A stretch of DNA of 22,552 bases from a virus, in the IMG/VR virus record IMGVR_UViG_3300022868_000869, positions 1 to 22,552 of that record; one strand, 5' to 3'. The translations under genes and the position numbers were made by a program. Shown piece after piece: positions 7,528-22,225 of this stretch; position 1 is the first letter of the stretch; every line of letters starts with the position of its first letter. A model generated the notes under the pieces. That model did not search any database, was not told the DNA's origin, and saw nothing but the letters and a program-made list of their open reading frames with translations.

Positions 7528-7536
7528 AGTTGAATC

Positions 7537-7962: not shown

Positions 7963-8000
7963 TCCAATACATACAAAATACTCTCACCTAGGAGCGAACC

Positions 8001-8444
8001 ATGGCAGAGAGTGCCACAGAACAGAAGCAGCCTGACCGCCTAGTTGTTGTTGAAACGGTCTACTATCAGCAGGCAAGACAACAACCACTTGCTATTGAAA
8101 CCCGCTTTTCTAAGCCCTTAGAAAGTGGGGAGCAACTCTACCAACGACAGTTGAAGACTACCCAAGAATGGGAATCTCTCGATACTGGTTGGATCAAATC
8201 AGTTGGTATGCTTCTTCTCAAGAATTGTGCTGGGAAAGACCTCCAAGAGAATCCTAGTGAGCAGTTGGCGGCAGAGATTGCAAGTAGTACGATTGAGCTA
8301 GGAATCCCTGATTGCCAATCCTCTTTCACCATCCTAGTCCCTCCTGGTGAGAGTGCCCGATTCTGTCCCTCATCTTTGGACCTACTAGTACGCTGTAAGA
8401 ATGTGGCCAACGTGCCTTATGTTCTTACACTCATCCCGGGGTAG
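8001..8444 (+). CDS. Small virion-associated protein, unknown role
   Basis: The protein has 147 residues and no recognised domain. Seen in it: an N-terminal polar stretch, a strand-rich middle with VGMLLLKNCAGKD, and a C-terminal part with FTILVPPGESARFCPSS and VPYVLTLIPG. This order loosely parallels the preceding protein. The start is well supported by the leader CTAGGAGCGAACC directly before ATG 8001, the same sequence found before the tail chaperone gene and the helicase gene. A 38-base gap separates it from the gene before; 8 bases separate it from the gene after. The location among tail-tip and fibre genes suggests a virion part, but this is inference only. Confidence 0.5.
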   Translation: MAESATEQKQPDRLVVVETVYYQQARQQPLAIETRFSKPLESGEQLYQRQLKTTQEWESLDTGWIKSVGMLLLKNCAGKDLQENPSEQLAAEIASSTIELGIPDCQSSFTILVPPGESARFCPSSLDLLVRCKNVANVPYVLTLIPG

Positions 8445-8452
8445 TCTCCGCT

Positions 8453-9070
8453 ATGCCCTACTATATGCTCACAGATAATGATGTCAAGTTATTGCGTAGA
8501 CTGCTGCGCATAACTCCCTCTGGTTCTTCCACAAGAGATGGAGACCCTTCCCCCAACTTCAATATCTTCACCTACTTTGAATTGAAGGAAGACTTAGCGG
8601 CAGACAGTACCACCGGAGCTACGGCTTACAAGCGGGAATGGGATGGCACGGCAGAGAGTGGGGAAGGTGCCTACGTGACAAACACTGACCTAGAGTTCAC
8701 CGTGAAGGATACGCGCAAAGTAGGATATTATGGCAGTGATGGGGCTATGGGCGCTTGCATAATGAAGTCTGCGGAGAGTGGATTGTTTGGCGAAATTGTT
8801 GACATGGAGTGCCTTATCTCCACTTATTTCGAGTTGAAGGAAACCCTTGGGGCCGACAGCACAACGGGTGCCACTGCCTATCGTCGCAATTACGATCCTT
8901 CTGCGAACGGCGGGGAAGGTGGACCTGTAACGGATACTAACGATGAGATTACAGTAAAGGACACGCGCGAAGTGGGATATTATGGCAGCGCAGGCGCTAA
9001 AGGTGCGTGCGTAATGAAGACAGCTGACAATAATTCATTCGGCGAGATCATCGACATGGAGTGTCCCTAA
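8453..9070 (+). CDS. Virion protein with a tandem duplicated domain
   Basis: This 205-residue protein consists of a ~39-residue head followed by two copies of one domain, residues 40-123 and 124-205. Both copies begin TYFELKE, continue with ADSTTGATAY, contain TVKDTR.VGYYGS and end with FGEI.DMEC. Identity between copies is high (about 60% by eye), so the duplication is not ancient. The domain is Gly/Thr/Asp-rich and probably beta. Each copy ends with a Cys. The stop TAA overlaps the next gene's ATG by one base (TAATG). I do not recognise the domain. The function is unknown; location and repetition point to a fibre or decoration protein. Confidence 0.55.
   Translation: MPYYMLTDNDVKLLRRLLRITPSGSSTRDGDPSPNFNIFTYFELKEDLAADSTTGATAYKREWDGTAESGEGAYVTNTDLEFTVKDTRKVGYYGSDGAMGACIMKSAESGLFGEIVDMECLISTYFELKETLGADSTTGATAYRRNYDPSANGGEGGPVTDTNDEITVKDTREVGYYGSAGAKGACVMKTADNNSFGEIIDMECP
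8570..9067 (+). repeat. Tandem duplication of an 84-codon unit
   Basis: Unit one runs from 8570 to 8821, unit two from 8822 to 9067. They line up over their whole length with a few small differences around residues 60-70 of each unit. Synonymous differences are plentiful, so the copies have drifted since duplication. Confidence 0.85.
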
Positions 9071-10623
9071 TGTCTCACTGGTGGTGTTGTTGTGATGATG
9101 ATGATGATAACTGCCCCTATGGTGGTCCACCTGACTGCCAGGCCAAGCCGGACGGCACGGTGTCTTGGTTCACGCACACGGTCAACGACGACAATACGAT
9201 CACCCGCGTCGATCACTCGGGGAAGTGCTACACGGTCTACGTCAATTCGACCAGCGGCGACGTTGACGAGACAGGCAACGGGACGGAGTCGCGGCCCTTT
9301 GTTAATCTTAATTCGATCTTCTCGGGCTACGTAACGAAGAGCGGGGCTAGCGGCACCCTAGCTTCCGGCGTGTTCACGCCCGGCGCGGCACCTACTGAAT
9401 GGGCAGCGGGGCGACTCATCGGGGCGAAGCTCACACTCGACGGAACCGATTACGAGGTAACAGCGAACACTACGACCACGGCAACCATTGCCGATCCGCC
9501 GGACGACGATACCTACAGTTGGACGCTTAAAATCTTCGACGATGATTGCATTTACAATATCTGCACCCACGCTGATCCGCCGGACAACTGCCCCAAGGTG
9601 AAGGTGCTGGTCAAGGGGAAGATTGATTATGCGGTGGTGGGGTTGAGCATCCGTAATTACCTTCGCAACCTGGTTCTTGAGCCATGGGACGTAGGTACTA
9701 TCGAAGTGGACGTATCGAGCAACGCTGGGGGTGTGCTGGGCACGCGAGGGGTTGCATGGAAAAGTACCAATGTTACGGGCACAACTACCACGTATGTGTG
9801 GTATGGGTTTGCTTATTGCGTAAACTCAACATTTGATTGCTGTGAAGGAAATGGCAGTTCGCTTGGTACAGTTTTTGCTTTTTATGAGTGTTCTGTGTCT
9901 GCATTTGACCAGTCTCGGGGCATTCCCGTTTTTGCTCCACACAAGCAAGGGTTTACGAACTGCGCCTCTTCAACATTCAGAAGCTGCACTGCCAATGGGA
10001 CGATGGCAATCATTGGTAGCACTTACTCGGCATTTGATTCATGTGCTGCCATTGCTGTCAATGCCAGTGCTGGCGCTTGGGGATTTACGCAATGTCATCA
10101 CTCGACATTTGTTTCCTGTACGGGCGATGGAACGGGAGGTGGGATTGGAACAAGCTATGGTTTTAATTCGTGTTATTCATCTCTGTTTTCATCTTGTGAC
10201 GGAACGGCAATTTGCCCCACTGAGAGTTATGGTTTCTATGGATGCTCGTTCTCGGCATTTATTTCTTGCACAGGAACCGCAACAGTAACAGCCTTAGTGG
10301 GAAACCGGAGGGCATGTGGATTTCATCTTAACACCTGCTCTTCTTTTGTTGATTGTTCAACGTCCCCGGTTTGTGACGACTTTGACAACGATGTCGAGTG
10401 GACCGAACATGAAATCGAAGGCGTTCTCAAGCTAACAGCTGACCATTCCTTCACTGAACGCGAGACTATTGAAGGTGTGTTGAAACTGGAAGCCGAGCAC
10501 TCAATTCTTGACATTCGCGAGACCGTTGAGGGCGTGTTGAAACTGGAAGCCGAGCAGAGCCTGGTAAGTCGCGAAACCCTTGAAGGCGTTCTGAAACTCG
10601 AAATAACCCATACCTTGGTGTAG
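9070..10623 (+). CDS. Tail spike/fibre with Cys-laddered beta-helix and EGVLKL repeats
   Basis: Start ATG 9070 is chosen over GTG 9061 because GGAG lies 8 bases before it and it forms a TAATG overlap with the previous stop. The protein has 517 residues. Residues 4-13 read WWCCCDDDDD, from repeated TGT and GAT codons. Residues ~50-240 are a GC-rich beta region. Residues ~245-430 hold about eight coils with the pattern GFxxCxxSxFxxC every 22-29 residues, expected to stack as a right-handed parallel beta-helix with columns of Cys and Phe. Residues 448-517 hold four copies of ETIEGVLKLEAEHS-like repeats. No hydrolase residues are evident. A receptor-binding spike is the likeliest role; polysaccharide depolymerase activity is possible because many beta-helix spikes have it. 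Confidence 0.7.
   Translation: MSHWWCCCDDDDDNCPYGGPPDCQAKPDGTVSWFTHTVNDDNTITRVDHSGKCYTVYVNSTSGDVDETGNGTESRPFVNLNSIFSGYVTKSGASGTLASGVFTPGAAPTEWAAGRLIGAKLTLDGTDYEVTANTTTTATIADPPDDDTYSWTLKIFDDDCIYNICTHADPPDNCPKVKVLVKGKIDYAVVGLSIRNYLRNLVLEPWDVGTIEVDVSSNAGGVLGTRGVAWKSTNVTGTTTTYVWYGFAYCVNSTFDCCEGNGSSLGTVFAFYECSVSAFDQSRGIPVFAPHKQGFTNCASSTFRSCTANGTMAIIGSTYSAFDSCAAIAVNASAGAWGFTQCHHSTFVSCTGDGTGGGIGTSYGFNSCYSSLFSSCDGTAICPTESYGFYGCSFSAFISCTGTATVTALVGNRRACGFHLNTCSSFVDCSTSPVCDDFDNDVEWTEHEIEGVLKLTADHSFTERETIEGVLKLEAEHSILDIRETVEGVLKLEAEQSLVSRETLEGVLKLEITHTLV
10411..10620 (+). repeat. Four C-terminal EGVLKL repeats
   Basis: Four units of 16-19 codons follow each other up to the stop codon: EIEGVLKLTADHS, ETIEGVLKLEAEHS, ETVEGVLKLEAEQS and ETLEGVLKLEITHT, with short variable joins (FTER, ILDIR, LVSR). 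DNA copies differ at many third positions, so the repeats are kept at protein level. Confidence 0.92.
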
Positions 10624-10625
10624 CT

Positions 10626-11423
10626 ATGGCATTTGTAATCTCGACCGAATACCGCGACAACATCTTGGACCTGTACAAGGCCGAGTTCGGCACGTCGCTC
10701 AAGCTCTGGAAGCTCCCGACCAGCGGCGAGCCGTCGCGTGACATGGCCTGGGCCGACTTCACCGAGGCGGATTACACGGGGTACGCGGCGAACACGACGG
10801 CCTTTCAGGCATCGACCTTGGACGGTGACGCGGCGAGCACTTACAGCGATACCGAGCTATTCCAGCACACGGACGGCGCGACGGATAACGATATTTACGG
10901 CGTGCTCGGGTACTACGATGCGGACGAAGTGGCCGGGGCTATGCTGTCATCCACGCCACGGGTGCTGGAGGATTGCGGGGACGCGGTCTTGGTTCGGTTG
11001 CAGATCCACCTGAAGGACACCGGCAGCGAAGAGTGGATGTTTTGCAACGAGTACATGAAACGCATCGTCGAGGCGTTCGAGCCGTACCGCGTCCATCTTT
11101 TCAAGAACGACATCACCCCAGCGGCCGACGACGTTATCGGCGATTACACGGAGTGCGACTTCGCCGGGTACGCGAGCATCGTATTTTCATGTTGGGGCGA
11201 CGGCACGCTGGATGTGAACACGGCAGAGATTACATCCTGCACCGTATCGTGGACGGCAACTGGCGATACCGACCCGGCCCAATCAGCCTACGGATATTAC
11301 CTGACCGACTCGGCGGGCAACTTGATCGGAGCCGAGAGGTTTGCGTCGGCCAGGGACATGAGTGACCTGAATGACAACACGGCGTTACAGGTGAAGCTGA
11401 GCCTCACGAATCCGGTGACCTGA
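10626..11423 (+). CDS. Two-domain virion decoration or fibre-associated protein
   Basis: This 265-residue protein contains two related domains about 129 residues apart. The first has ADFTEADYTGYA (43-54) and later IYGVLGYYDADEVAGAML (90-107); the second has GDYTECDFAGYA (172-183) and later AYGYYLTDSAGNLIGAERFA (221-240). The order 'LFkNditP...DyteadF.GYa' is a pattern I associate with phage structural proteins, usually in one copy. GC content is near 65-70%, far above the tail genes before 8500, so this gene probably came from elsewhere. It starts 3 bases after the spike stop without a clear ribosome site, suggesting coupled translation. The stop TGA overlaps the next ATG (TGATG). Confidence 0.55.
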   Translation: MAFVISTEYRDNILDLYKAEFGTSLKLWKLPTSGEPSRDMAWADFTEADYTGYAANTTAFQASTLDGDAASTYSDTELFQHTDGATDNDIYGVLGYYDADEVAGAMLSSTPRVLEDCGDAVLVRLQIHLKDTGSEEWMFCNEYMKRIVEAFEPYRVHLFKNDITPAADDVIGDYTECDFAGYASIVFSCWGDGTLDVNTAEITSCTVSWTATGDTDPAQSAYGYYLTDSAGNLIGAERFASARDMSDLNDNTALQVKLSLTNPVT

Positions 11424-11797
11424 TGAAGCTGGCACACGAATACATGAGGCAACAACGAGAGAAGCGACAAGGGCAGCCCGTTGAACAGCCAGAGAAGCAG
11501 CAACCAGAACAACCCACACCTAGAGACCTCCAACCAGTAGCCGACCGACTCGGAATCAAGCCAGAGCATATTAAACACTATGCTGATGCGCTGATCCGCT
11601 GGAGGGCAGCCGGGTATCCAACGCGAACGCAACCAGAAGTTGAGGCGTGCCTTGCAGTGTGTGTAGCGTGCGAGCATTACACCAAGAATGGCAAATGTCG
11701 TAAGTGCGGATGTTGCGTGAACAACAGCAAGATAGCCGTACTGAACAAAGCAAAGATGTTGACTGAACAATGCCCAAAGGGGAAGTGGCTATTATGA
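11423..11797 (+). CDS. Small Cys-cluster (probable zinc-binding) protein heading the modification cassette
   Basis: The protein has 124 residues. Its first ~40 are Gln/Glu/Pro-rich and probably unstructured. From about residue 75 it holds a cysteine set, CLAVCVACEHY, then CRKCGCCV and finally CPKGKW. Pairs of CxxC followed by 'CP.GKW' fit a compact metal-binding domain of a type I have seen in phage and bacterial genes close to glycosyltransferases; I cannot name the family with certainty. It overlaps the previous stop by one base (TGATG) and the next start by four (ATGA), so it links the fibre genes to the glycosyltransferases. It could be a scaffold or adaptor. Function unknown. Confidence 0.6.
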   Translation: MKLAHEYMRQQREKRQGQPVEQPEKQQPEQPTPRDLQPVADRLGIKPEHIKHYADALIRWRAAGYPTRTQPEVEACLAVCVACEHYTKNGKCRKCGCCVNNSKIAVLNKAKMLTEQCPKGKWLL

Positions 11798-12489
11798 AAC
11801 TGATTAAGTGGAGCTACGGTATCACAACCGTGCCAGAGCGTAGGCACACAACCCTACCAACCACTCTGACATCTCTGAGAAAGGCTGGGTTTGATTGTCC
11901 CCGCCTATTTGTGGATGGTCCCTACAACCCCGGTGAGTATGCTTCTCTAGGGTTGCCCACTACCTACAGACAATCCCCAGTCCTTACGTTTGGGAATTGG
12001 ATACTCTCCCTTTGGGAATTGTATGTGAGGAATCCTGAGTGTAGCCGGTTTGCAATTTTCCAAGATGATCTTATCACATACCCCAATCTCAAAGCCTATC
12101 TAGAAAAGTGTGAGTATCCTGAAAAAGGTTACCTCAATTTGCTGTCCTTTATGGACAACGAAAAGCTACTAGAGGAGAGTAGAGGGTGGATAGAATCTAA
12201 CCAACGAGGGCGTGGGGCTGTTGCTCTTGTCTTTGACCGAAAAGCCGTCTCCGCTCTTCTACAGCAACCGCACATAGTGAATAAGCCAAGAACAACTGGA
12301 TGGAGAAAGCACAAGAAGATTGATGGCACAATCGTTGAAGCGTTTCGTCAGGCAGGCTACAAAGAATACATCCACTCCCCATCCTTGATACAACACATGG
12401 GACACGAGAGTTCCATCAGCAATCAACCCCACCCTGAAGCTCTCTCTTTCTTGGGAGAAGACTTCGATGCCCTACAATTTCTCACCTAG
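11794..12489 (+). CDS. Glycosyltransferase-like protein (GT-A type)
   Basis: Start ATG 11794 lies within the ATGA overlap and follows GGGGA; an earlier ATG at 11770 would only re-read the previous gene. The product is 231 residues. SYGITTVPERR at the start and FAIFQDDLITYPNLKAYL (residues 86-103) resemble GT25- or MGAT4-like enzymes: an N-terminal strand with 'TT.peR', then acidic Asp91-Asp92 where a metal and sugar nucleotide would bind. The C-terminal PSLIQHMGHESSISN resembles the 'QH.G..Ss' end found in that group. No membrane segment is visible, so it should act in the cytoplasm. Sugar and acceptor are unknown. A catalytic role is likely but not certain. Confidence 0.65.
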   Translation: MKLIKWSYGITTVPERRHTTLPTTLTSLRKAGFDCPRLFVDGPYNPGEYASLGLPTTYRQSPVLTFGNWILSLWELYVRNPECSRFAIFQDDLITYPNLKAYLEKCEYPEKGYLNLLSFMDNEKLLEESRGWIESNQRGRGAVALVFDRKAVSALLQQPHIVNKPRTTGWRKHKKIDGTIVEAFRQAGYKEYIHSPSLIQHMGHESSISNQPHPEALSFLGEDFDALQFLT

Positions 12490-12498
12490 GGATTAGTC

Positions 12499-13683
12499 GT
12501 GAAAACAATCTCCGTTCCAGACGAGTGGGCGGAAGCTTATAACAGCCCGGAGTTTCAGCAGTTTGCGAAAGCTTGGTTAGGATTTGATCCCATAAAACCC
12601 GAGGTCTCCCAAAGCCAATCGAAGCGACTCAGGACGGTCCAAGATGTGATAGAAAGTCTACCAAAACCTGGGGGATTTGAACAACTAGCTATCCCTCCCT
12701 ACGTTGGCGGAGGTTCAAGTGGGATAGCTTTTGGGGTAGCCTCTATGAAGCATCACACAACAGATGAGGGATGGCAAATCTTCAATGGATTAAAACACGC
12801 AGGGTATGCTCTAGTTGGCCATAATTTGCCTTGCAACCACACTGACGTACGGCGGGCAATTACTTCAATGCACCCTGGCGTTGTCGTGATGCAAGACAAG
12901 AGAGAATGGGACGTTTCCGCGAGAGATTTTAGAGATAAAGAAGCCAGGTTCATCAAGACTAGTTCTTTAGCTGGTCAACCCCAGATTTTCAAGCTAACTA
13001 TTCTCAAAGATTCCCACCAAAGGCCAAGGTATCATGCAGAAGCGGCAACAGAAATGGGGTGCCATGCTTGGATTATTTACTATCACCCTAGGATCGTTTG
13101 TCATAACGCCCCGTATGTAAGACCTGAACACTTAATCCGCACCTACCACAGTATTAATCTTAAGGTAGTTCCTGCCTACGCCCCCAGAAGGATGAACTGC
13201 ATCTTTTCTGGGGCAATGTCAAGAGCCTACCCCATGAGGGAGCACATTAGGAATAATCTTTCAAGCCTCCCTCTAGTTGATTACCACAAACACCCAGGGT
13301 ATCACCGTAAAGGGTGTGAAACTCCCTCGTTTTTGAAGCTGCTCAACAGATACAAAGTATCAATCTGCACTAGCTCAATCTATGGCTATGCTCTCCGCAA
13401 GATAATTGAATCAACAGCTTGTGGTTGTCGGGTAATCACAGACTTGCCCACAGACGAGGTAATGCCAAGCATAGATGGTAATCTCCTAAGAGTCCCCCCA
13501 GGCATTCCCATTCCCAAGCTGCATCGAGTTGTCCAAGACCTTTGCGATACCTACGATCCTGCAACACAACAGAGATACGCTCAAGCAGCTAAAGAGTTCT
13601 ATGATTATCGTCGATTGGCTAACAAACTAGTGAAAGACATTGAACAATTACGAAAGGATTACCGCGATGGCCTTAATGGATAA
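12499..13683 (+). CDS. Glycosyltransferase-like protein (GT-B type)
   Basis: The gene uses GTG 12499, just after the previous stop, with a modest AGGGAT site. Of 394 residues, the C-terminal half carries the recognisable part: YKVSICTSSIYGYALRKIIE (residues 285-304) and STACGCRVITDLPTDEV, which match the nucleotide-sugar binding region of group 1 glycosyltransferases, with Glu304 in the usual acidic position. The N-terminal half (GIAFGVASMKHHTTDEGWQI, then VVVMQDKREWD) fits the first Rossmann-like domain. The final ~50 residues are helical and charged. No membrane segment is seen. Its end overlaps the start of the LicD-like gene by 17 bases. Donor and acceptor are unknown. Confidence 0.7.
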   Translation: MKTISVPDEWAEAYNSPEFQQFAKAWLGFDPIKPEVSQSQSKRLRTVQDVIESLPKPGGFEQLAIPPYVGGGSSGIAFGVASMKHHTTDEGWQIFNGLKHAGYALVGHNLPCNHTDVRRAITSMHPGVVVMQDKREWDVSARDFRDKEARFIKTSSLAGQPQIFKLTILKDSHQRPRYHAEAATEMGCHAWIIYYHPRIVCHNAPYVRPEHLIRTYHSINLKVVPAYAPRRMNCIFSGAMSRAYPMREHIRNNLSSLPLVDYHKHPGYHRKGCETPSFLKLLNRYKVSICTSSIYGYALRKIIESTACGCRVITDLPTDEVMPSIDGNLLRVPPGIPIPKLHRVVQDLCDTYDPATQQRYAQAAKEFYDYRRLANKLVKDIEQLRKDYRDGLNG

Positions 13684-14251
13684 AGAAGCTGGACGAAAGT
13701 GCTTGCTGGAAGTCTCCGATTTACTCAAAACTTTGGGTCTCCAGTTTTTCCTTATGCAAGGGACAGCTTTGGGAGCCTACAGAGATGGGGGATTTGTCCC
13801 CACAGAGAGAGATATCGACTTTGGCATTCTCCAAGAGAATCTAACACCCGTTGCAATCCCTCTTGTTTCCCGGCTGGCTGCCCTAGATTTTCAGGTTGAG
13901 ACGTTCTCATTGCCCTTTCACAAAGTGCGCACGATTGTGGCGTGGAAATACGGGGCCAAGGTTGATCTCGTTGGTATGATTCGTTGGGGAAACCTCCGAT
14001 TCACTGCTAACCCTGTCCATCCTTCTGTGGTAGAGCCTTATGCGCTAGTACACGAGGCAGAAATCTTGGAGAATTATGCTCAAATAACTCTATTTGAGCA
14101 GACATTTAACATGCCGTACAAAATTGAAACCTATTTGGAGAGAGAATACGGGGATGATTGGCGAACCCCCAAGGATGATCACGTTTCCCGTACGCGCATC
14201 TACGATTTCATCTCCAAGGAAGGTATACCCGAGGATCATCTGGATGCTTAA
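13667..14251 (+). CDS. LicD-like nucleotidyltransferase-fold phosphotransferase
   Basis: ATG 13667 is chosen because AAAGGA lies 8 bases before it; an in-frame TTG at 13640 lacks such a site. The 194-residue protein shows the LicD/fukutin signature: FFLMQGTALGAYRDGGFVP (residues 27-45) followed by ERDIDFG (47-53), with Asp49 and Asp51 as likely metal ligands. Known LicD proteins transfer phosphocholine or other phospho-alcohols from CDP-linked donors onto glycans. A cytidylyltransferase two genes downstream could supply such a donor. It lacks a membrane anchor. Some family members are nucleotidyltransferases with other substrates, so the chemistry is inferred. It overlaps the next gene by 8 bases. 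Confidence 0.75.
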   Translation: MALMDKEAGRKCLLEVSDLLKTLGLQFFLMQGTALGAYRDGGFVPTERDIDFGILQENLTPVAIPLVSRLAALDFQVETFSLPFHKVRTIVAWKYGAKVDLVGMIRWGNLRFTANPVHPSVVEPYALVHEAEILENYAQITLFEQTFNMPYKIETYLEREYGDDWRTPKDDHVSRTRIYDFISKEGIPEDHLDA

Positions 14252-14816
14252 CCTAGCCCAAACTCCAGAAGAGCTAAACGAGATACATGGTCCTCAAGAC
14301 TACTACGACTACTTGCGTAGTCCCGAGTTCCAAAGAAGTGTTCTCAAGCCTCTAGCTGCCATGGTCAATAGGTTGGGAGCGTCCTGTTTGGATGTGGGGT
14401 GCGGTCAAGGGTATTTGGGACAGTATGTTGATGGGCAGTATCTTGGATTTGACGGCTCTCAAACAGCGATAGACCATGCCCGGGAGAACAATCCAGGAGA
14501 GTTTCGGGTGGCCCGGTTTGAGGATCTAGAAGAAGTTTTCCGCATTGTCTCTGACTTCTCTACCCAATTTGATACAATCGTCTTCGGTAACCTCCTTTCA
14601 GTCTTGATAAAGCCTGAATCATATGTTGAGTTTCTGGAGAGCTACGTCAAAAGGTTCTCTGCCAAATTCTTAATTGTCTGTGACCTACAGACGCTAGACA
14701 CAACAGCGATAGACAGGAGATTTTCATGTCGATTTCGGCATTATGGAAACGTTCAACTGCCTGGGCTTCAAGAAATAAAAAAGGCCCGGAAAATCCTCCT
14801 ATACAAAGGATCATAG
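14244..14816 (+). CDS. Class I SAM-dependent methyltransferase (first)
   Basis: Start ATG 14244 follows GAGG by 9 bases and lies inside the end of the LicD-like gene; the open frame upstream is only that gene read out of frame. The product has 190 residues. Motif I is clear (CLDVGCGQGYLG, residues 48-59), followed by QYLGFDGSQTAIDHAREN, with the acidic Asp70 that binds the SAM ribose, and a later FDTIVFGNLL strand. This is a typical small Rossmann methyltransferase similar to ubiE/Methyltransf_11 types. The methyl acceptor is unknown; sugars are plausible given the neighbours. Its last 91 bases overlap the next gene in another frame. Confidence 0.8.
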   Translation: MLNLAQTPEELNEIHGPQDYYDYLRSPEFQRSVLKPLAAMVNRLGASCLDVGCGQGYLGQYVDGQYLGFDGSQTAIDHARENNPGEFRVARFEDLEEVFRIVSDFSTQFDTIVFGNLLSVLIKPESYVEFLESYVKRFSAKFLIVCDLQTLDTTAIDRRFSCRFRHYGNVQLPGLQEIKKARKILLYKGS

Positions 14817-15220
14817 TTTACACTCCAGGGGTTTGGGATTTGCTGCATGTAGGCCACGTATCTTTCCTACAGCGCGCGAGATCACTCGGTACGATGTTGA
14901 TTGTGGGAGTACCCACTGACAACACAGTGAGGGAAGACAAAGGAGAGCCTCCGATCATCCCTTGTGAAGACAGAGTAAAGATGCTTCGTGCTTTGTGCTA
15001 CGTAGATCATGCTTTACCATACTCAACTCTGGATTTTCTTAATCACTTGAACCTATTTCAACCTTCCATTCTTGCCATAGGCCAAACCTGGGGGAAGGAG
15101 ACAAGACACAAGCTAGCGGAGCAATGGGCAGAAAGGCATGGGTGTAAAATCGTCATACTGCCTTACACCCAAAAAGAATCCACTACCAAGATCAAGGAGC
15201 GAATCCGTGAAAGAATCTGA
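14726..15220 (+). CDS. Cytidylyltransferase-like nucleotidyltransferase (TagD/RfaE C-terminal type)
   Basis: The 164-residue protein has the HxGH motif (HVGH, 41-44) within VYTPGVWDLLHVGHVSFL, then VGVPTDN and a C-terminal STTKIKERI, matching the HxGH and ISTTxI-type motifs of glycerol-3-phosphate, phosphoethanolamine and ADP-heptose transferases. It would join CTP or ATP to a small phosphorylated alcohol or sugar. ATG 14726 is preceded by AGGAG at 6 bases and is well supported, though it creates a 91-base overlap with the methyltransferase and about 28 residues before the usual fold start; no other ATG/GTG/TTG is available near the fold. Its stop overlaps the radical SAM start. The exact substrate cannot be read from the sequence. 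Confidence 0.8.
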   Translation: MSISALWKRSTAWASRNKKGPENPPIQRIIVYTPGVWDLLHVGHVSFLQRARSLGTMLIVGVPTDNTVREDKGEPPIIPCEDRVKMLRALCYVDHALPYSTLDFLNHLNLFQPSILAIGQTWGKETRHKLAEQWAERHGCKIVILPYTQKESTTKIKERIRERI

Positions 15221-16154
15221 AGCTATCTCAAGGATGATTCCTCCAGGACAACATCGACCAAAGAAGTGGAGGGGAGGGGTAATACAAATCTGGCTGACTC
15301 GTGCTTGTGATAAGGCGTGTTTTGGATGTACACAAGCCAGTAACCTAAAAGGCCCTTGCGATTTTATTTCCAAGGAACAATTTGAGAAGGCTTGTATCAG
15401 CCTAGCAGATTATCCAGGCGTGGTTGGAGTCTTCGGTGGCAATCCTGCCATGCACCCTCAGTTCGCTGAAATATGCACAATACTTGCAGACCATATTCCC
15501 TTTGAACAACGGGGGCTTTGGTGTAACAATCCTCTAGGAAAAGGCGCAGCGATGCGCCAGACGTTTAATCCGGCTGTTTCCAATCTTAACGTACACTTAG
15601 ACAAAACAGCCTATAGTGATTTTAAGTCTAGTTGGCCTGAGTGTAATCCCTTCGGAATCAAAGATGATAGCCGCCACAGTCCTCCCTACGTCGCAATGCA
15701 GGATATTATTTCAGATGAGGAAGAAATGTGGGAGTTGATTTCCAACTGCGATATCAACCAGCATTGGTCTGCTATGATTTGTGTCTTTCGGGGAGAACTT
15801 CGAGCGTTCTTCTGCGAGATAGCCGGATCACTAGCAATGCTGCACCAAGGCAATCCAAACCATCCAGACCTGGGATTCATTGTCACACCTGATTGGTGGA
15901 AGCAACCAATAGAATCCTTTGCTCAACAAATCAAACAGTATTGCCCCGCTTGCGGTGTGCCTCTGAGGGGATACGGAGAGCTAGCACAAAACCCAAATGG
16001 TGTTGATCAAGTAAGCCCCACACACGCCCCCATCTATCATCCCAAAGACCAACACAGGAAAGTGCAAATTGTTACAGACAGAAGCCAACTTGGCAATCAA
16101 CAACTAAACATGATGACTGATTACTTAGGCAACGCAAAAAGGAGCTGTCCATGA
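15207..16154 (+). CDS. Radical SAM enzyme 1, with extra cysteine cluster
   Basis: GTG 15207 is preceded by AAGGAGCGAATCC, an excellent site; the earlier in-frame start only re-reads the cytidylyltransferase. The 315-residue protein has CX3CX2C at Cys34, Cys38 and Cys41 for the 4Fe-4S cluster that cleaves SAM. The usual GGEP motif is GGNPAMHP (77-84), so the acidic residue is replaced by Asn. A second set of cysteines follows: Cys181, Cys192, Cys203, Cys246 and Cys249 (CPAC), suggesting an auxiliary cluster of SPASM or twitch type. ELRAFFCEIAG (197-207) and WWKQPIESF are other clear features. The substrate is unknown; peptide or sugar modification are both possible. It ends in an ATGA overlap. 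Confidence 0.85.
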   Translation: MKESEAISRMIPPGQHRPKKWRGGVIQIWLTRACDKACFGCTQASNLKGPCDFISKEQFEKACISLADYPGVVGVFGGNPAMHPQFAEICTILADHIPFEQRGLWCNNPLGKGAAMRQTFNPAVSNLNVHLDKTAYSDFKSSWPECNPFGIKDDSRHSPPYVAMQDIISDEEEMWELISNCDINQHWSAMICVFRGELRAFFCEIAGSLAMLHQGNPNHPDLGFIVTPDWWKQPIESFAQQIKQYCPACGVPLRGYGELAQNPNGVDQVSPTHAPIYHPKDQHRKVQIVTDRSQLGNQQLNMMTDYLGNAKRSCP

Positions 16155-16909
16155 TCTATCAACCTGAGTGGCCTGGAGCCAAAAACGACCCACTGCCCGT
16201 TGGTCTCTGTGAGGAGTTCATCAAACTCTTCAAGACAGAAGACCAACGCCCCAATGGGCAAGACGTATACGAGGAGATTTTCGCCTCAGCATATATGTTT
16301 CCTCTTCAACGTAGAGAGGAGATGGCCTATATGATGCAGACAGCCCGAGGCATTCAACCCAAGGTTGTTTGCGAAATAGGGGCGGACAAGGGCGGAGGCT
16401 TGTATCATTGGTGCAAAAGTGTTCCCTCCGTAGAACGGGTGATAGGTTGCGAGATTCGGGGTACCCCCTACGCAGCTTATTTTGAAGAAGCCTTCCCTGA
16501 CATAGACTTCCTCTGGATACCCAATAGTTCCTACGATCAAAACGTCGTGGACTTTGTTCGGGATTGGCTAGCCCAAGACAAAATCGATTGTCTGTTTATT
16601 GACGGCGACAAGAGTTATTTTGATCTGGACTTTTGGCAATACTACCCATACATCAATCCCCAAGGTATTGCATTCTTCCATGATATCCAAGATCGGCCAC
16701 CCAGGGTAAGCTATGATGCGGTTTGTGCCCGAGGATTTGTTCATCGAGAATACATCAATCTAGAAGACAGCAAAAGAGCCATAGAAAATAAGAAACGAGG
16801 AAAGCCAGCAGCCAATGCACATGAGGCATGGCTACGTTATTGGAAAGGACGTTCAGCGGGAGTTGGCACAATCCTGCTGGATGGCAATACCCAGGAGGCA
16901 CCCAAATGA
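16151..16909 (+). CDS. Class I methyltransferase (second, Methyltransf_24/CmcI-like)
   Basis: Starting in the ATGA overlap, this 252-residue protein has KVVCEIGADKGGGLYHW (71-87) as motif I and VIGCEIRG with the ribose-binding acid, then IDCLFIDGDKSYFDLDFWQY (145-164), a metal/acceptor motif with Asp151 and Asp153, and IAFFHDI (173-179). This layout matches the Methyltransf_24 and cephalosporin-hydroxylase-like (CmcI) group, several of which methylate sugar hydroxyls, such as in rhamnosyl O-methyltransferases. It is soluble. The final 30 residues are basic and may hold an extension. It overlaps the next gene by 4 bases. Confidence 0.75.
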   Translation: MIYQPEWPGAKNDPLPVGLCEEFIKLFKTEDQRPNGQDVYEEIFASAYMFPLQRREEMAYMMQTARGIQPKVVCEIGADKGGGLYHWCKSVPSVERVIGCEIRGTPYAAYFEEAFPDIDFLWIPNSSYDQNVVDFVRDWLAQDKIDCLFIDGDKSYFDLDFWQYYPYINPQGIAFFHDIQDRPPRVSYDAVCARGFVHREYINLEDSKRAIENKKRGKPAANAHEAWLRYWKGRSAGVGTILLDGNTQEAPK

Positions 16910-17640
16910 CCCAATCGTTCTTCCACGTAGAAATGGAAATCAATACTAATTGTGACTGCTCTTGTTTTGGTTGCGATAGATTTCTGGATGCAGCACCAAC
17001 AACCCCAATGACAGTGGAGCAAGTACAACAATTTGTTCGAGAAGCAATAGACCAACAGTGGCATTGGAAACGCATCCATGTCCTCGGTGGGGAGCCCACA
17101 CTTCATAAGCAATTCCGAGACATTGTCAGGTTACTAATTGACTACCGCAAATTGTACCCTGGGCAGCTCACCGTAATCAGTAACGGATTAGGAAACCTCT
17201 CCAACCATCAATCATGGCTTGAAGATAACGGGGTAAGAATTGCTGTCGAAGCCAAGTCCAAAACCAAAACCCCAGAGTGGTTTTGTAATACTCGACAAGC
17301 CCCAATTGATGAGGGGATTCTGCAATTGCCTCCATGTAGTATCTATGGGGCTGAGGCTTGTGGAATAGGCTTCACAAAACACGGATATTTTCTCTGTGGT
17401 GCTGGGGCGTCTATCGCAAGAGTCACAGGACAAGATATTGGGACCAAGCGGTTGCAAGATTTAAGCCACGAGTCGATGCTTCAACAGGCCAAAACTCTTT
17501 GCCATTTGTGTGGGCATTACAGCGGGCCAGAGAGGCAACGCAAACTCATAGCCAACACCGGGGACGTGGCAGGCCCCTATTGGGCCAACAAACTCAGAGA
17601 TTGGAAACCCTCCCATATGAGCCTTTACGGAGTGGACTAA
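16906..17640 (+). CDS. Radical SAM enzyme 2, SPASM/twitch-like
   Basis: ATG 16906 is preceded by AGGAGG at 7 bases and overlaps the previous stop; an upstream in-frame start is a shadow. The 244-residue protein has CX3CX2C at Cys16, Cys20 and Cys23, with an additional Cys18 between them, and a classic GGEPTLH (61-67). C-terminal cysteines are Cys144, Cys152, Cys164 (C..G.....HGYFLCG) and Cys199/Cys202 (CHLC), a spacing like the auxiliary cluster region of SPASM or twitch proteins. It is shorter than most SPASM enzymes (350-450). It differs from radical SAM 1 in sequence, so the two are probably distinct enzymes and not a recent duplication. Confidence 0.85.
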   Translation: MTQSFFHVEMEINTNCDCSCFGCDRFLDAAPTTPMTVEQVQQFVREAIDQQWHWKRIHVLGGEPTLHKQFRDIVRLLIDYRKLYPGQLTVISNGLGNLSNHQSWLEDNGVRIAVEAKSKTKTPEWFCNTRQAPIDEGILQLPPCSIYGAEACGIGFTKHGYFLCGAGASIARVTGQDIGTKRLQDLSHESMLQQAKTLCHLCGHYSGPERQRKLIANTGDVAGPYWANKLRDWKPSHMSLYGVD

Positions 17641-17642
17641 AA

Positions 17643-18236
17643 ATGATTTCTTACAAATGGATTGGTAATCTATTCCCCGCGCCTGGATACTTCATTGAAG
17701 CAGGAGCACACGACGGTATAGGAGACTCCCAAACCTACGCGCTAGAACAACAAGGGTGGGATGGGATTTGCGTTGAACCTTCTTCCGCCTTTAGGGGATT
17801 GAAAAGAAGCAGAAAATGTAAAGTTGATTCTCGTTGCCTTTGGAGTGTTGATGGAGATACGATAGACTTCCGAGAAGTGAGAGGCAACGGGGTAGAGTTG
17901 TCAGGAATTGCTAACCAATTCTACGATGCCCACGATAGAACAGACAGTGATATTGTTTCCAAGCAAACAATAACGCTCCCAACTCTGCTATTGGAACACA
18001 ACGCCCCAAAAATAATTGAGTGGCTCTCTTTAGACACTGAGGGTTCTGAGTTTGCTATCCTCTCGGCGCATGATTTTGACCGATTCCAATTCCAAGCAAT
18101 CACAGTGGAGCATAACCAAGTGGTTACACAAAGAAACAAAATCAGGCAACTCCTTTTCTCTAAGGGGTATGTACTCGGACACGCGCAAGAGATTGAAGAT
18201 TGGTACGTGAAGGACACATTAGGGAGAAAACTATGA
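17643..18236 (+). CDS. FkbM-family methyltransferase
   Basis: The start is ATG 17643, two bases after the previous stop, with GGAG 10 bases before it. The 197-residue protein shows the FkbM plan: YFIEAGAHDGIGDSQTYAL (16-34), then GICVEPSSAF (41-50) with the acidic residue for SAM, and IEWLSLDTEGSEFAIL (125-140), the 'lKiDvEG.E' signature with Asp131, Glu133 and Gly134. FkbM enzymes usually O-methylate sugars or small molecules and are common next to glycan genes. The end overlaps the next gene by 4 bases (ATGA). The substrate is unknown. Confidence 0.85.
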   Translation: MISYKWIGNLFPAPGYFIEAGAHDGIGDSQTYALEQQGWDGICVEPSSAFRGLKRSRKCKVDSRCLWSVDGDTIDFREVRGNGVELSGIANQFYDAHDRTDSDIVSKQTITLPTLLLEHNAPKIIEWLSLDTEGSEFAILSAHDFDRFQFQAITVEHNQVVTQRNKIRQLLFSKGYVLGHAQEIEDWYVKDTLGRKL

Positions 18237-18961
18237 GAGCCATTCTTGTCTCTGTTGATTATGCAGATTTGTTGGCCATAACCCTCTCGTATAATCGCCA
18301 TCACTTTGGCGAAGTCATGGTAGTAACCTCTCATGCAGATAAAGACTCACAACAAGTTGCCCGAAACAACAACGCGCAAGTATACACCACCAATACGTTC
18401 TTCGACCGAGGGGCAATGTTCAACAAGTGGGCAGCCCTAGAGGAAGCGTTAGACAAATATGGTAGGCATGGGTTGATGTGTATTATGGACGCCGATGTTC
18501 TTTGGCCAAAAATAATCCCCGAAACCAATTACCTCCCAGGCTATCTCTACGGGCCTTTGAGGCGCATGAATAAAGACGTTCATTCCCCTGTTCCCGGGGA
18601 AGTAGATTGGCAGAGGTATCGACTGCACGGGAATCAAACCGAGTGGGCAGGCTACACTCAGATATTCCATGCAAAGGATGATTGTCTTGGCCATCCTCCA
18701 TGGCACGAAACCAACTGGACTCATGCAGGAGGGGCAGACAGTTTCTTCCAGCGGAAGTGGGATGCCCAACACAAAATCAGAACCTCTTGGAATGTCCTCC
18801 ACCTAGGATTGGCTGGACGTAATTGGTGTGGCAGAATTACACCCTACAGAGACAAGACAATTCCAGACAGCCAACAGGAGAGGGCAAGACACTTGAGGAA
18901 ATTGATCGACAATCGGAGACGTACCCAAACGTTTGAAGCCGAGAAGCTGCTGCCAGAATAA
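18233..18961 (+). CDS. Glycosyltransferase-like protein, DxD type, last gene of the cassette
   Basis: ATG 18233 has AGGGAG 6 bases ahead and overlaps the FkbM stop. The 242-residue protein begins with a Rossmann-like strand (MRAILVSVDYADLLAITL) and has VMVVTSHADKDS, GAMFNKWAALEEAL, then MCIMDADVLWP (82-92), whose Asp86-x-Asp88 is the metal and nucleotide-sugar motif of GT-A enzymes. The C-terminal VLHLGLAGRNWCGR with a conserved-looking His is in the place where GT-A enzymes have their second metal ligand. The last 35 residues are charged. There is no membrane segment. A terminator follows 11 bases after the stop, so this is the final gene of the transcription unit. Confidence 0.75.
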   Translation: MRAILVSVDYADLLAITLSYNRHHFGEVMVVTSHADKDSQQVARNNNAQVYTTNTFFDRGAMFNKWAALEEALDKYGRHGLMCIMDADVLWPKIIPETNYLPGYLYGPLRRMNKDVHSPVPGEVDWQRYRLHGNQTEWAGYTQIFHAKDDCLGHPPWHETNWTHAGGADSFFQRKWDAQHKIRTSWNVLHLGLAGRNWCGRITPYRDKTIPDSQQERARHLRKLIDNRRRTQTFEAEKLLPE

Positions 18962-18971
18962 TTGATCTCTT

Positions 18972-19033
18972 CCGTGGCCCCCTCCCCCTCGCAGGTTTTC
19001 GCTCCAGCCTGTGAGATGGGGGCCACGGTTTTT
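18972..19033 (+). terminator. Strong intrinsic terminator of the late + strand unit
   Basis: CCGTGGCCCCC (18972-18982) pairs perfectly with GGGGGCCACGG (19018-19028); within the loop CTCGCAGG pairs with CCTGTGAG to extend the stem. Five T follow at 19029-19033. The - strand side has no T run, so it acts only on + strand transcription. Confidence 0.93.
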
Positions 19034-19093
19034 GTCTCCCCAATCTTGCATCTAGTCCCCCTAAGCCTCTCGGGAGAATCCTAGGGTAGTTTG

Positions 19094-19253
19094 CCCTAGA
19101 TAGCATCGAAGGCCCATAGAGGGGCCTTCTCAGCCCGATATGGCCCTAATCTAGGCTATTCCTCCCATCTAGCTTGCCTCCCTGCTTACCTAGCCCCGGC
19201 CGTAGCCCCTAGTCTTACCCTAGATAGCCCCACACAAGGCCGTAAAGGGGCCT
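19094..19253. repeat. Duplicated hairpin module (two copies)
   Basis: The first copy (19094-19127) is CCCTAGATAGC, four bases, AAGGCC, six bases, GGGGCCT. The second (19218-19253) is CCCTAGATAGC, seven bases, AAGGCC, five bases, GGGGCCT. The 11-base leader is identical, and each copy can fold with GGCC opposite GGCC. The copies lie 124 bases apart. Confidence 0.8.
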
Positions 19254-19292
19254 ACAGAAGCACGCAAGGCAGCCAGGGGAACATTACACCCC

Positions 19293-19310
19293 AAGCCTCT
19301 CCAGAGGCTT
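19293..19310. repeat. Perfect 8-base inverted repeat
   Basis: AAGCCTCT and AGAGGCTT are separated by two bases; in RNA the innermost pairs would open to give a workable loop. No T run follows it on either strand, so it is not a usual terminator. AAGCCTCTC also occurs once earlier at about 19062. Confidence 0.7.
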
Positions 19311-19355
19311 AGAGAGGGGCAAAACAGGAGATTTTGGGGATGGATATTAGCGCAT

Positions 19356-19394
19356 AAAAATACCCCCTACCAGCATTGCTGCCAATAGGGGGTA
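19356..19394 (-). terminator. Intrinsic terminator of the - strand operon
   Basis: On the - strand TACCCCCTA (19394-19386) pairs with TAGGGGGTA (19369-19361); CAGC and GCTG inside form an inner stem. Five T follow (19360-19356). It lies 27 bases after the last - strand gene. The + strand reading has no T run. Confidence 0.9.
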
Positions 19395-19420
19395 ATGTGT
19401 AGCTAAAGAGTAGCTTGAGG

Positions 19421-19600
19421 CTAGCCTCCTCGATTTGCTCTAGGTTTGGTGGTTGCGTGAGGGACAGCTCCATTGCGTGCGCGTAGGCTACGCTTGTTGC
19501 TCACCCGATGGGGCTTTGGTTCTGTTGCTTTTGGCTGCATCCAAACGTGATCATAAGGCAAAACCATTCCGGCCACTGTGATATTCTTGTCCTGCGCCAT
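19421..19600 (-). CDS. Small basic protein, 59 residues, unknown
   Basis: It starts at ATG 19600 with AAGGA about 8 bases ahead, and the ATG shares one base with the TAA of the preceding gene (TAATG), which indicates coupled translation. The product is basic in its second half (HRVSNKRSLRARNG) and ends TTKPRANRGG; the first half is mildly hydrophobic (ITVAGMVLPYDHVWM). No domain is recognised. The stop codon lies within a perfect 12-base palindrome GAGGCTAGCCTC (19417-19428), and the operon terminator follows. A nucleic-acid-binding role is possible given the charge but not shown. Confidence 0.6.
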   Translation of the reverse strand: MAQDKNITVAGMVLPYDHVWMQPKATEPKPHRVSNKRSLRARNGAVPHATTKPRANRGG

Positions 19601-19770
19601 TACACTTTTCCTTGGAATATTTGGGTTTGGTTATTGCTTCGGTCTCGTCTTCGTCTGTTGATCCTTTCTTCTCTATCGAGAATATCAAGCATTATTTCAC
19701 GAGGGTCTGGTAGTCCTTTGGCTTTTGCGTAGGCTACCATCTCAGAAATCGTTGGGGCAGGTGCTTCCAT
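19600..19770 (-). CDS. Small charged helical protein, 56 residues, unknown
   Basis: The start is ATG 19770, behind AAAGGAG, the strongest site in this operon segment. The protein begins MEAPAPTISEMVAYAKAKGL, continues with PREIMLDILDREERINRRRR and ends IFQGKV. It looks helical with an acidic middle and an Arg cluster at 39-42. Its start lies 29 bases inside the DUF4314-like gene in another frame, and its TAA overlaps the next ATG. No family is recognised. The ribosome site and overlaps on both sides make it very likely to be translated. Confidence 0.65.
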   Translation of the reverse strand: MEAPAPTISEMVAYAKAKGLPDPREIMLDILDREERINRRRRDRSNNQTQIFQGKV

Positions 19771-19996
19771 GATTCTCCTTTCGGTTTTCTACTAAAACAA
19801 TATCAGGAGGACTAACCAAGGTATAGGACTTTGCGGGGCAACTGTCCCAACAAACATCTAACACCTTCCAGTGACTGTCACCTAATCCGTAGCCATCAAC
19901 AGCTATGACGGTTCCTTCTTCCCCAACCATGAGTGGGTCAGGATCGTTGAACACTGCCATTAGTTTAACACGGTCCCCAGCTTGTACAGTCTGCAT
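19742..19996 (-). CDS. DUF4314-like SH3-fold small protein
   Basis: The 84-residue protein has GDRVKLMAVFNDPDPLMVGE followed by GTVIAVDGYG and then VLDVCWDS and SPPDIVLV. This is the pattern of DUF4314: 'G.rV.L..m..dp.pi..G..GtV..vd..g.i.v.WD..', a small SH3-like beta barrel found in phages and mobile elements with no known function. Start ATG 19996 has GAGGA about 9 bases ahead and lies 11 bases after the previous stop. The last ~14 residues (ENRKENHGSTCPNDF) extend beyond the fold and overlap the next small gene. Confidence 0.75.
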   Translation of the reverse strand: MQTVQAGDRVKLMAVFNDPDPLMVGEEGTVIAVDGYGLGDSHWKVLDVCWDSCPAKSYTLVSPPDIVLVENRKENHGSTCPNDF

Positions 19997-20007
19997 GAAT
20001 CCATTCC

Positions 20008-20157
20008 TCAGGCTAGATCGGTTTTTCTTGCGTGAAACAAACTAGATTTGGGATACTCGCAGGAAGGGAGAGGTTGAAACCCACACCGGATACAGGCTGA
20101 CTCTTTCCCCTTATCCTCTTGTTGTCTTCCGCAAGCTGGGCATTTAATCTTAGCCAC
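20008..20157 (-). CDS. Small zinc-ribbon protein, 49 residues
   Basis: Two starts are possible: GTG 20157, which has AGGAG at the proper distance, and ATG 20172 five codons earlier, which has no good site. I prefer the GTG. The protein reads AKIKCPACGRQQEDKG and then ACIRCGFQPL, so two CxxC pairs (Cys6, Cys9, Cys22, Cys25) 12 residues apart form a typical zinc ribbon; a further Cys33 follows. It overlaps the end of the preceding gene by 8 bases. Its role is unknown; similar phage ribbons bind nucleic acids or proteins. Confidence 0.65.
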   Translation of the reverse strand: MAKIKCPACGRQQEDKGKESACIRCGFQPLPSCEYPKSSLFHARKTDLA

Positions 20158-20389
20158 TTCGTTTCTCCTCATGCTTGAGTTGGTTATCCTCTCCCACCTT
20201 GACCGCCCGTAGTACCGTTATGAGCCGAAACCCATCCCCGTATATTGCTGGCCGCCAAATAAAACAATAGCCCAATCGCCCCGCAACTGCCGTTCGGATT
20301 ATTTGCGTATCAGTGGCTGCTTCGACCCGCTGGAGGAATCGTTTGCGGCCGTGCTTAGTGAGTCGGTAGTTCGTTCCGTTGATTGTCAT
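20150..20389 (-). CDS. Small basic alpha/beta protein, 79 residues, unknown
   Basis: The start is ATG 20389 because AAGGAG lies about 7 bases ahead; a frame open to 20464 runs through another small gene and is not favoured. The protein begins MTINGTNYRLTKHGRKRFLQ, a beginning like '.LT.HG..RFleR' seen in small toxin-like or DUF4258-like proteins, then has CFIWRPAIYGDGFRLITVL, two strands. The fold could be RelE/BrnT-like, but no catalytic set is evident and no antitoxin partner is next to it. The C-terminus KHEEKRSG is charged. I would leave it as a hypothetical protein. Confidence 0.6.
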   Translation of the reverse strand: MTINGTNYRLTKHGRKRFLQRVEAATDTQIIRTAVAGRLGYCFIWRPAIYGDGFRLITVLRAVKVGEDNQLKHEEKRSG

Positions 20390-20427
20390 GCAATTTCTCC
20401 TTAACATCCCACTTGAAGAGGTTTCCT

Positions 20428-20514
20428 TTACGGTTGAACGCTGACCTGCCACAACAAAGCACAAATCAGGGCTACCAGGATAATGATGGTCCAGTCGAGT
20501 AGCAATTTCTTCAT
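20428..20514 (-). CDS. 28-residue single-span membrane peptide
   Basis: ATG 20514 has AAAGGAG with ideal spacing and lies just after the helicase stop at 20528, the ribosome site overlapping that stop region. The peptide MKKLLLDWTIIILVALICAL continues LWQVSVQP and ends in TAA. A Lys-Lys start and 18-20 hydrophobic residues form one membrane helix or a signal-like segment. Small phage membrane peptides of this size can be holin-like or act in superinfection exclusion. Function is not known. Confidence 0.55.
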   Translation of the reverse strand: MKKLLLDWTIIILVALICALLWQVSVQP

Positions 20515-20527
20515 CGGTTCTCCTTTG

Positions 20528-22207: not shown

Positions 22208-22225
22208 TGGTTCGCTCCTTGGAAA

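Follow-up and report, generated by a model that had tools for sequence, protein, structure and literature searches.

Dozens of related phages in an uncultured lineage carry, in a fixed slot linked to their tail genes, an island of glycan-related genes. In the window analysed here, which is one uncultured tailed-phage contig of 22,552 nucleotides, this island comprises 11 genes (g1 to g11), all on the + strand between positions 11423 and 18961 and directly 3' of the fibre genes. The reading that we favour, and hold to be somewhat probable, is that the cassette encodes a late-expressed cytoplasmic pathway which assembles and edits a glycan and decorates the phage's own virion proteins with it, most likely those of the upstream fibre or tail tip. 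The gene content, the conserved place, the scarcity of membrane proteins, the exchange of alleles under purifying selection and two gene fusions are observed; what we infer is the acceptor, the timing, the sequence of the steps, what each enzyme does chemically and the selective purpose. To our knowledge, glycosylated phage particles are known from few isolates only.

Table 1. Features of the window that are discussed in the text
Feature	Coordinates	Strand	Description
fib1	9061..10623	+	Ser/Thr/Cys-rich fibre-like protein upstream of cassette; candidate acceptor
fib2	10626..11423	+	last structural-type gene
g1	11423..11797	+	Cys-cluster protein, CxxC..CxxCxC..C
g2	11794..12489	+	GT-A glycosyltransferase, GT13-like predicted fold; hallmark gene of the slot
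g3	12499..13683	+	probable GT-B glycosyltransferase
Allele-exchange block	12771..15217		3' three quarters of g3, then g4, g5, g6
g4	13667..14251	+	LicD-family phosphotransferase; DxD kept
g5	14244..14816	+	class I SAM methyltransferase; PF08242 over cut-off
g6	14726..15220	+	nucleotidyltransferase, HldE-C / ethanolamine-P / glycerol-3-P cytidylyltransferase superfamily
g7	15207..16154	+	radical SAM enzyme, probable twitch class
g8	16151..16909	+	methyltransferase, Methyltransf_24 / CmcI-like; slightly under Pfam cut-off
g9	16906..17640	+	second radical SAM enzyme; CxxxCxxC + C-terminal CxxC
g10	17643..18236	+	FkbM-family methyltransferase; PF05050 5.9e-16, over cut-off
g11	18233..18961	+	probable GT-A glycosyltransferase
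Terminator	18972..19034	+	strong intrinsic terminator, closes operon

Operon layout and enzyme families

With the best gene starts, fib2 and g1 overlap by 1 bp (TGATG) and eight of the 10 internal junctions of the cassette overlap as well: by 4 bp at g1/g2 (ATGA), g7/g8, g8/g9 and g10/g11, by 8 bp at g4/g5, by 8 or 17 bp at g3/g4, by 14 bp at g6/g7 and by 91 bp at g5/g6. AGGAG precedes the start of g6 (ATG at 14726), and a sister phage has the same start. The remaining junctions are gaps of 2 bp (g9/g10) and 9 bp (g2/g3), the latter being the widest. No strong + strand terminator was found between the fibres and the cassette, and promoter-like sites were no commoner than chance would give (14 against 14.7 expected). 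The terminator behind g11, missed by a pattern scan because its arms are interrupted, has a fold of -40.9 kcal/mol (18972-19028, z -7.7) that was equalled by none of 200 shuffles. Coordinates and fold thus agree with the earlier note, which had described eleven mostly overlapping genes on one strand, following the fibres without a terminator and stopping at a strong one; its family labels (three glycosyltransferase-like proteins, LicD, three methyltransferases, two radical SAM enzymes and a Cys-cluster protein) largely stand.

A convincing Pfam match is absent from g2, g3 and g11 themselves. g2 has no Pfam family at E 0.1, so no GT13 sequence (Pfam GNT-I) is recognisable in it; its QDD motif is invariant, and its structure model (pLDDT 85) matches POMGnT1 with Z 17.6 (3.4 A, 216 residues) and GnT-I with Z 15.9. 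The five best rows of the fold search were all GT13 enzymes (Z 15.0-17.6; next 14.0). By predicted fold only, g2 is GT13-like: the GT13 N-acetylglucosaminyltransferases (GnT-I, POMGnT1), which have this fold in common with it at Z 15-17.6, form eukaryotic families at 11-18% identity to g2, and have an EDD motif where g2 has QDD. The best match of the model is a transferase that acts on glycoproteins, although a shared fold alone fixes neither acceptor nor reaction. Family matches suggest that g3 is probably a GT-B glycosyltransferase (PF13524 in three of seven members, best 2.9e-4) and g11 probably a GT-A glycosyltransferase (PF13704 in 7 of 14 relatives, best 0.0027); the profiles of both yielded nothing meaningful against PDB sequences.

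The LicD match of g4 (PF04991, 31.2 bits against a gathering cut-off of 22.6) covers 38 residues only; the nucleotidyltransferase DxD lies within a TERDIDFG motif, and an NCBIfam Mf1 cholinephosphotransferase match (5e-13) falls under that model's cut-off. For g6, CTP_transf_like is above the Pfam cut-off, the best solved relative is an ethanolamine-P cytidylyltransferase (82.7 bits), and NCBIfam gives 97 bits to the ADP-heptose synthase HldE C-domain against 58 bits to GCT. The earlier label of cytidylyltransferase therefore holds at the level of the nucleotidyltransferase superfamily, the CTP part being less certain with the HldE C-domain equally close. On the basis of LicD and this ambiguous nucleotidyltransferase, the product may carry a phospho-decoration.

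Pfam radical SAM matches of g7 and g9 are weaker than those of the families that pass their cut-offs. In g7, CxxxCxxC (C34, C38, C41) is invariant in 14 sequences, and further invariant cysteines (C181, C203, C246, C249) have twitch-like spacing in a part of the model that is partly of low confidence. This model is moderate (best pLDDT 77, five models spanning 47 to 77); it matches SpeY with Z 12.1 (rmsd 4.0, 237 residues), BtrN and PqqE with Z 10.7 each, and peptide-modifying radical SAM structures with Z 8-10. Modelling thus points to g7 as probably a twitch radical SAM dehydrogenase, with the sub-class a lead because PqqE scores like BtrN. SpeY and BtrN, the twitch dehydrogenases of aminocyclitol antibiotic biosynthesis, resemble g7 in fold and in CxxxCxxC plus four C-terminal cysteines ending in CxxC; they differ from it in sequence (8-11% identity) and in its phage setting, and the fold does not identify its putative substrate.

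In contig L015, g7 forms a fusion with a methyltransferase, and in L016 with a g11-type glycosyltransferase, which ties these enzymes to one pathway. An alternative is that the cassette yields a small product, diffusible or derived from a peptide (natural-product- or RiPP-like), instead of a macromolecular glycan. The fusion of radical SAM to a glycosyltransferase-type domain counts against it, as do the nucleotide-sugar enzymes that relatives carry in this slot; the cassette shows no gene for a precursor peptide, an exporter or an NRPS/PKS. SPASM/twitch-like Cys patterns in two radical SAM enzymes would suit such a product, as would the similarity of the g7 model to peptide-modifying structures, but we give it the least credence of all the readings considered.

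A conserved slot behind the tail genes

We surveyed related phages from the tail protein p6550, a starting point blind to the cassette, and counted those contigs that extend 6 kb or more beyond it (n = 49). A g2-type transferase follows the fibres in 36 of these 49 contigs, in all 36 on the tail strand and 1.8-6.7 kb past p6550, and the ORFs between the two are almost all on the + strand. In another count, all 21 of 21 contigs showing both have g2 downstream of the tail genes and in the same orientation, among them L022, where it abuts the last tail match. The strand that the earlier note had found shared with the tail genes is therefore usual but not universal: in L034, g3-g7-g11 lie on the other strand and converge with the tail genes. 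The cassette is missing entirely from one sub-clade of these phages, so it is not required for assembly in general.

The relatives are almost all viral contigs, and the g2 genome scan for hosts returned just two MAG contigs; the cassette is accordingly a phage one, as first proposed, and not a set found only in host genomes. No g7 relative was found in host genomes by a pattern-limited scan, and 294 Planctomycetota genomes gave one weak g7 match, which makes this phylum a weak lead as host. In tblastn searches against 50,697 isolate phage records, the tail proteins had no match and the cassette had weak single-gene matches only.

The 118 ORFs behind g2 in the surveyed contigs are mostly glycan-related in family content, in line with the glycan pathway first suggested: 16 match Methyltransf_24, 15 match radical SAM, each GT-B family has 7-11, UDP-sugar dehydrogenase has six and epimerase four, with FkbM, LicD and sulfotransferase also present. 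Payloads of type B include DegT aminotransferase and GNAT. Membrane proteins are nearly absent, as the earlier note had remarked of the cassette: TM-like segments were found in none of the 11 window genes and in one (weak) of the 118 slot ORFs. Gtr serotype-conversion cassettes of temperate phages (gtrA/gtrB/gtr-type) are likewise phage-borne sets of glycan-altering transferases, but they need a membrane flippase (GtrA) and membrane transferases, neither of which the cassette has; this near-absence disfavours serotype conversion of the flippase/Gtr type.

The same observation weighs against the broader proposal that its enzymes alter the surface of the infected host cell (LPS, capsule or teichoic acid), for instance to block superinfection or release progeny from receptors: neither a flippase nor a polyprenyl-phosphate transferase is present among the 118 slot ORFs, and genes placed last in a tail operon come late for superinfection exclusion. 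We consider this proposal unlikely, though there are points in its favour. LicD-type and FkbM/CmcI-type enzymes are known in surface polysaccharide loci, the payload is like O-antigen side-branch loci, and the licD of Flandersviridae gut phages has been read in this way (PMC8008677). In that family an insertion of two genes, licD/ispD, pairs LicD with a nucleotidyltransferase as here, but it sits in the replication module, whereas here LicD, a methyltransferase and the nucleotidyltransferase lie within a tail-linked glycan island.

Allele exchange with a sister phage

A sister contig overlaps the window over 12.2 kb and is identical except for one SNP, a small block near 20 kb and the allele-exchange block of Table 1, which has sharp edges and 619 differences (about 75% identity). 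Within the block, dS is 1.7-3 and dN 0.11-0.19, giving dN/dS of about 0.04-0.08 with dS near saturation. An assembly chimera was rejected as the cause: neither allele interrupts any ORF, the dN/dS ratio is low and the two alleles have identical flanks, which means that at least two block alleles exist in the population. The pattern indicates homologous exchange of functional g3-g6 alleles under purifying selection. The g4-g5-g6 trio adjoins g3 in L041, L061 and L062 too, at other positions.

The sister contig also encodes a thymidylate-synthase-family protein, a possible base hydroxymethylase, and a DNA N4/N6 methylase. Phage DNA glycosyltransferases exist (cited in PMC12619734), and the cassette could on these grounds be imagined to hypermodify and glycosylate phage DNA. 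We regard this as very improbable: the two sister genes sit elsewhere on the opposite strand, and payloads such as LicD, FkbM, UDP-sugar dehydrogenase and epimerase consist of glycan enzymes. Transferases that modify DNA are usually made before or with replication, and the end of a tail operon is an atypical position for them.

Proposed pathway and candidate virion acceptor

Under virion glycosylation, g2, g3 and g11 would use nucleotide sugars of the host to assemble a short glycan, and g5, g8 and g10 would O-methylate it. g6 would make a nucleotide-activated group for g4 to transfer as a phospho-substituent, and g7 and g9 would edit the carbons of the sugars, by oxidation or in another way, as SpeY and BtrN do. 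The late-operon position, overlapping genes and shared terminator support this reading, as do the slot kept across relatives, the glycan families behind g2, the scarcity of membrane segments, the g7 fusions, the recurring g4-g5-g6 trio, the low dN/dS of the exchanged block, the match of g2 to a glycoprotein-acting transferase and g7 as a putative twitch dehydrogenase. Against it speak the convergent cassette genes of L034, the sub-clade that has no cassette, the moderate model of g7 and the fact that polymers of the cell surface are also substrates of LicD enzymes and of many such transferases.

Virion glycosylation by phages is already known; what is new here is the lineage, its putative radical-SAM chemistry and the exchangeable island. 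Mycobacteriophages encode glycosyltransferases for which glycosylation of capsid and tail proteins has been either demonstrated or suggested (Freeman et al. 2023, as cited in PMC12619734 and PMC13313380). Those phages are like ours in encoding glycosyltransferases, with methyltransferases in some relatives, and linkage of such enzymes to structural genes is seen here for g2 in all 21 and all 36 contigs; ours differ in having a long dedicated island directly after the fibres, with radical SAM, LicD and nucleotidyltransferase genes added.

In this reading the tail-operon end is a slot in which recombination exchanges the glycan payload, whole and in sub-modules; sister phages would then differ in their surface glycan, either as a shield against recognition or for receptor specificity. 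It is possible, if doubtful, that this site is a surface-glycan variation locus in which swapping of sub-modules (g3-g6) among otherwise identical phages yields virions with differing radical-SAM-edited, methylated and phospho-substituted glycans; no earlier case would then exist of a virus using twitch-type radical SAM sugar dehydrogenases on its particles. If the product does sit on virions, the locus would be a swappable one for phage surface glycans, comparable to bacterial capsule or O-antigen loci and bearing on how hosts, predators and immune systems recognise phages; its radical SAM, LicD and methyltransferase genes would supply new sugar-editing enzymes.

As candidate acceptor, fib1 had no match in a family search; it has 21% S+T and 5% C. 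Ser/Thr richness was rejected as a sign of O-glycosylation, the structural proteins p138 and p2484 being equally high and the measure thus not discriminating. At the junction of fibres and cassette, g1 weakly matches DUF6171 / phrog_13558. A 54-aa 'CGC/CNC' module gave no match in a Pfam search, and g1-like Cys modules lie between the tail genes and g2 in L038, L029 and L040.

Architecture and enzyme content of the cassette

The whole window belongs to a single IMG/VR virus record. As the earlier note had described, eleven genes on one strand run on from the fibre genes fib1 and fib2 to one strong terminator, a stem-loop (-40.9 kcal/mol, z -7.7) that precedes a run of T. The near-universal overlap described there agrees with overlaps at eight of the ten internal junctions, the other two being gaps of 9 and 2 bp. 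The last fibre gene and the first cassette gene overlap by 1 bp; no strong terminator lies between fibres and cassette, as had been claimed, and promoter signal there does not rise above chance. On the 5' side are genes for a tape measure protein and connector-type proteins, the latter weakly recognised, and on the 3' side a helicase gene on the opposite strand.

Matches above Pfam cut-offs were obtained for g4 (LicD), g5 (methyltransferase), g6 (nucleotidyltransferase) and g10 (FkbM), and slightly below them for g7 and g9 (radical SAM) and g8 (Methyltransf_24). The three glycosyltransferase-like proteins, g2, g3 and g11, lack a convincing single-sequence match; the label is supported for g2 by its model, for g3 by relatives that match the GT-B family PF13524 (3 of 7) and for g11 by relatives that match PF13704 (7 of 14). 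The label of g6 as a cytidylyltransferase is less certain than had been stated, the choice between ADP-heptose synthase and cytidylyltransferases being ambiguous. The predicted structure of g2 (pLDDT 85) has a GT-A fold, with the GT13 enzymes POMGnT1 and GnT-I as its top five structural matches (Z 15.0-17.6), and an invariant QDD motif. The g7 model (pLDDT 77) lies nearest to SpeY (Z 12.1), followed by BtrN (Z 10.7); both are radical SAM enzymes of the twitch class, with aminocyclitols or glycosides of these as the substrates that they oxidise. Because PqqE scores the same as BtrN, we treat the twitch sub-class as a lead. Across 14 relatives, none of the seven cysteines in the radical SAM motif and the putative auxiliary motif varies. 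The cassette very probably encodes a glycan-building pathway of some kind.

Coordinates of features in the window and in related contigs
Feature	Contig	Position	Strand
Tail-associated protein p6550	window	6550-7527	
205-aa protein with duplicated unit	window	8453-9070	
fib1 direct repeats	window	10459-10600	
Cassette, g1-g11	window	11423-18961	+
Main differing block	window	12771-15217	
Terminator stem-loop	window	18972-19028	
Minor differing block	window	20019-20122	
HNH-type gene (by eye)	L008	11851-12498	
HNH-type gene (by eye)	L063	11961-12425	
Split thymidylate synthase family gene	L010 (sister)	7286-9205	-
~50-aa module	L050	8854-9015	
~50-aa module	L032	10756-10917	
~50-aa module	L084, L108, L114 and others		
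N-terminally extended g2	L050	8656-10011	
N-terminally extended g2	L058	8644-10044	
N-terminally extended g2	L063	8649-9974	
N-terminally extended g2	L054	8266-9825	

Distribution and exchange of the cassette

The earlier note had placed the cassette in phages, and our searches bear this out: they returned viral contigs with g7 (14), g2 (11) and g3 (29; the sets overlap), while genome scans, which depend on short patterns, turned up g2 relatives in just two metagenome-assembled contigs and none of g7. Typically the tail genes and fibres come first, followed by g2, g3, g7, methyltransferase and g11. Two contigs (L019 and L040) carry both radical SAM genes with g8, FkbM, g3 and g11; in three (L041, L061, L062) a g4-g5-g6 block of varying position adjoins g3, and g7 is fused to a methyltransferase in L015 and to a g11-type transferase in L016. 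A second payload type in the same slot comprises an acetyltransferase, a GT-B transferase, an epimerase and a DegT aminotransferase.

So that contigs would not be selected by the cassette, we also surveyed from p6550, finding 78 loci, of which 49 extend 6 kb or more downstream; a few of the contigs are nearly the same as one another. A g2-type transferase lies downstream on the tail strand in 36 of the 49, 1.8-6.7 kb from p6550 with almost all intervening genes on the same strand, and g7 is present in 12. Glycan and methyltransferase families are the commonest among the 118 ORFs downstream of g2, of which one has a TM-like segment. Known cassette genes are absent from 13 of the 49 contigs; eight of these form one group with a strand switch directly after the last structural gene, and two have other GT2-like genes, one a weak match. 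The p6550 group numbers at least 78 IMG/VR contigs, yet the protein p6550 matches no PHROG and has no relative among isolates.

The sister contig (40,431 bp) is identical to window positions 10319-22552 but for one SNP and two blocks. The main block has 619 differences in 2447 bp, with dS 1.7-3 and dN 0.11-0.19, and therefore represents two anciently diverged, functional g3-g4-g5-g6 alleles in otherwise identical phages. The difference reflects homologous exchange and shows purifying selection on the enzymes. HNH-type, homing-endonuclease-like genes between cassette genes of two contigs are a possible driver of module exchange. The minor block, among small minus-strand genes, has 16 changes in ~100 bp. 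Another contig, L065, is 99.2% identical to window positions 1-7881, and in the sister contig an intein that contains an HNH endonuclease splits a thymidylate synthase family gene. The CheckV paper (PMC8116208) names the sister's metagenome and a sample from R. Cavicchioli, so its source is probably an Antarctic lake.

Probable acceptor and relation to known systems

The cassette enzymes look soluble, and flippase and membrane transferase are absent; the acceptor should therefore be accessible in the cytoplasm. Virion proteins are the best candidates for that acceptor, given that the slot keeps its place after the fibre genes and falls late in the structural operon; the enzymes would glycosylate them in the cytoplasm. 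Modification of the host surface is a less likely alternative; DNA modification and, marginally less probable still, synthesis of a small product both seem very improbable. We favour virion-protein glycosylation with some reserve, as in one contig (L034) g3, g7 and g11 run convergently to the tail genes and one phage group has no cassette.

Phage-encoded glycosylation is a known kind of system into which the cassette fits: mycobacteriophages are reported to have glycosylated virions (Freeman et al. 2023, in the account given by PMC12619734 and PMC13313380), and a phage LicD has been reported from Flandersviridae (PMC8008677). The cassette differs through its island-like payload, which is exchangeable and occupies a fixed slot, through its radical SAM enzymes, and through a phage lineage for which tail proteins identified no isolate relative.

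Neighbouring modules

In many contigs a ~50-aa module (GITxERVxxWLGxPCGCxERxEKLN), without a Pfam match, adjoins or is fused to the g2 transferase; g1 may take its role in the window. A second phage group has a g2 transferase with a fused N-terminal region of 200-300 aa, unassigned to a family. Before fib1, a 205-aa protein contains an internally duplicated ~100-aa unit (FTYFELKEDLAADSTTGATAY... / STYFELKETLGADSTTGATAY...), and the fib1 end carries direct repeats with EGVLKLEAEHS units (41-bp copies, 90% identity). On a 168-kb Planctomycetota MAG contig (L037), a g2 relative follows phage-like fibre genes, accompanied by a GT2-TPR gene and a sulfotransferase-like gene; this contig, a prophage or misbinned phage, is the sole host lead.
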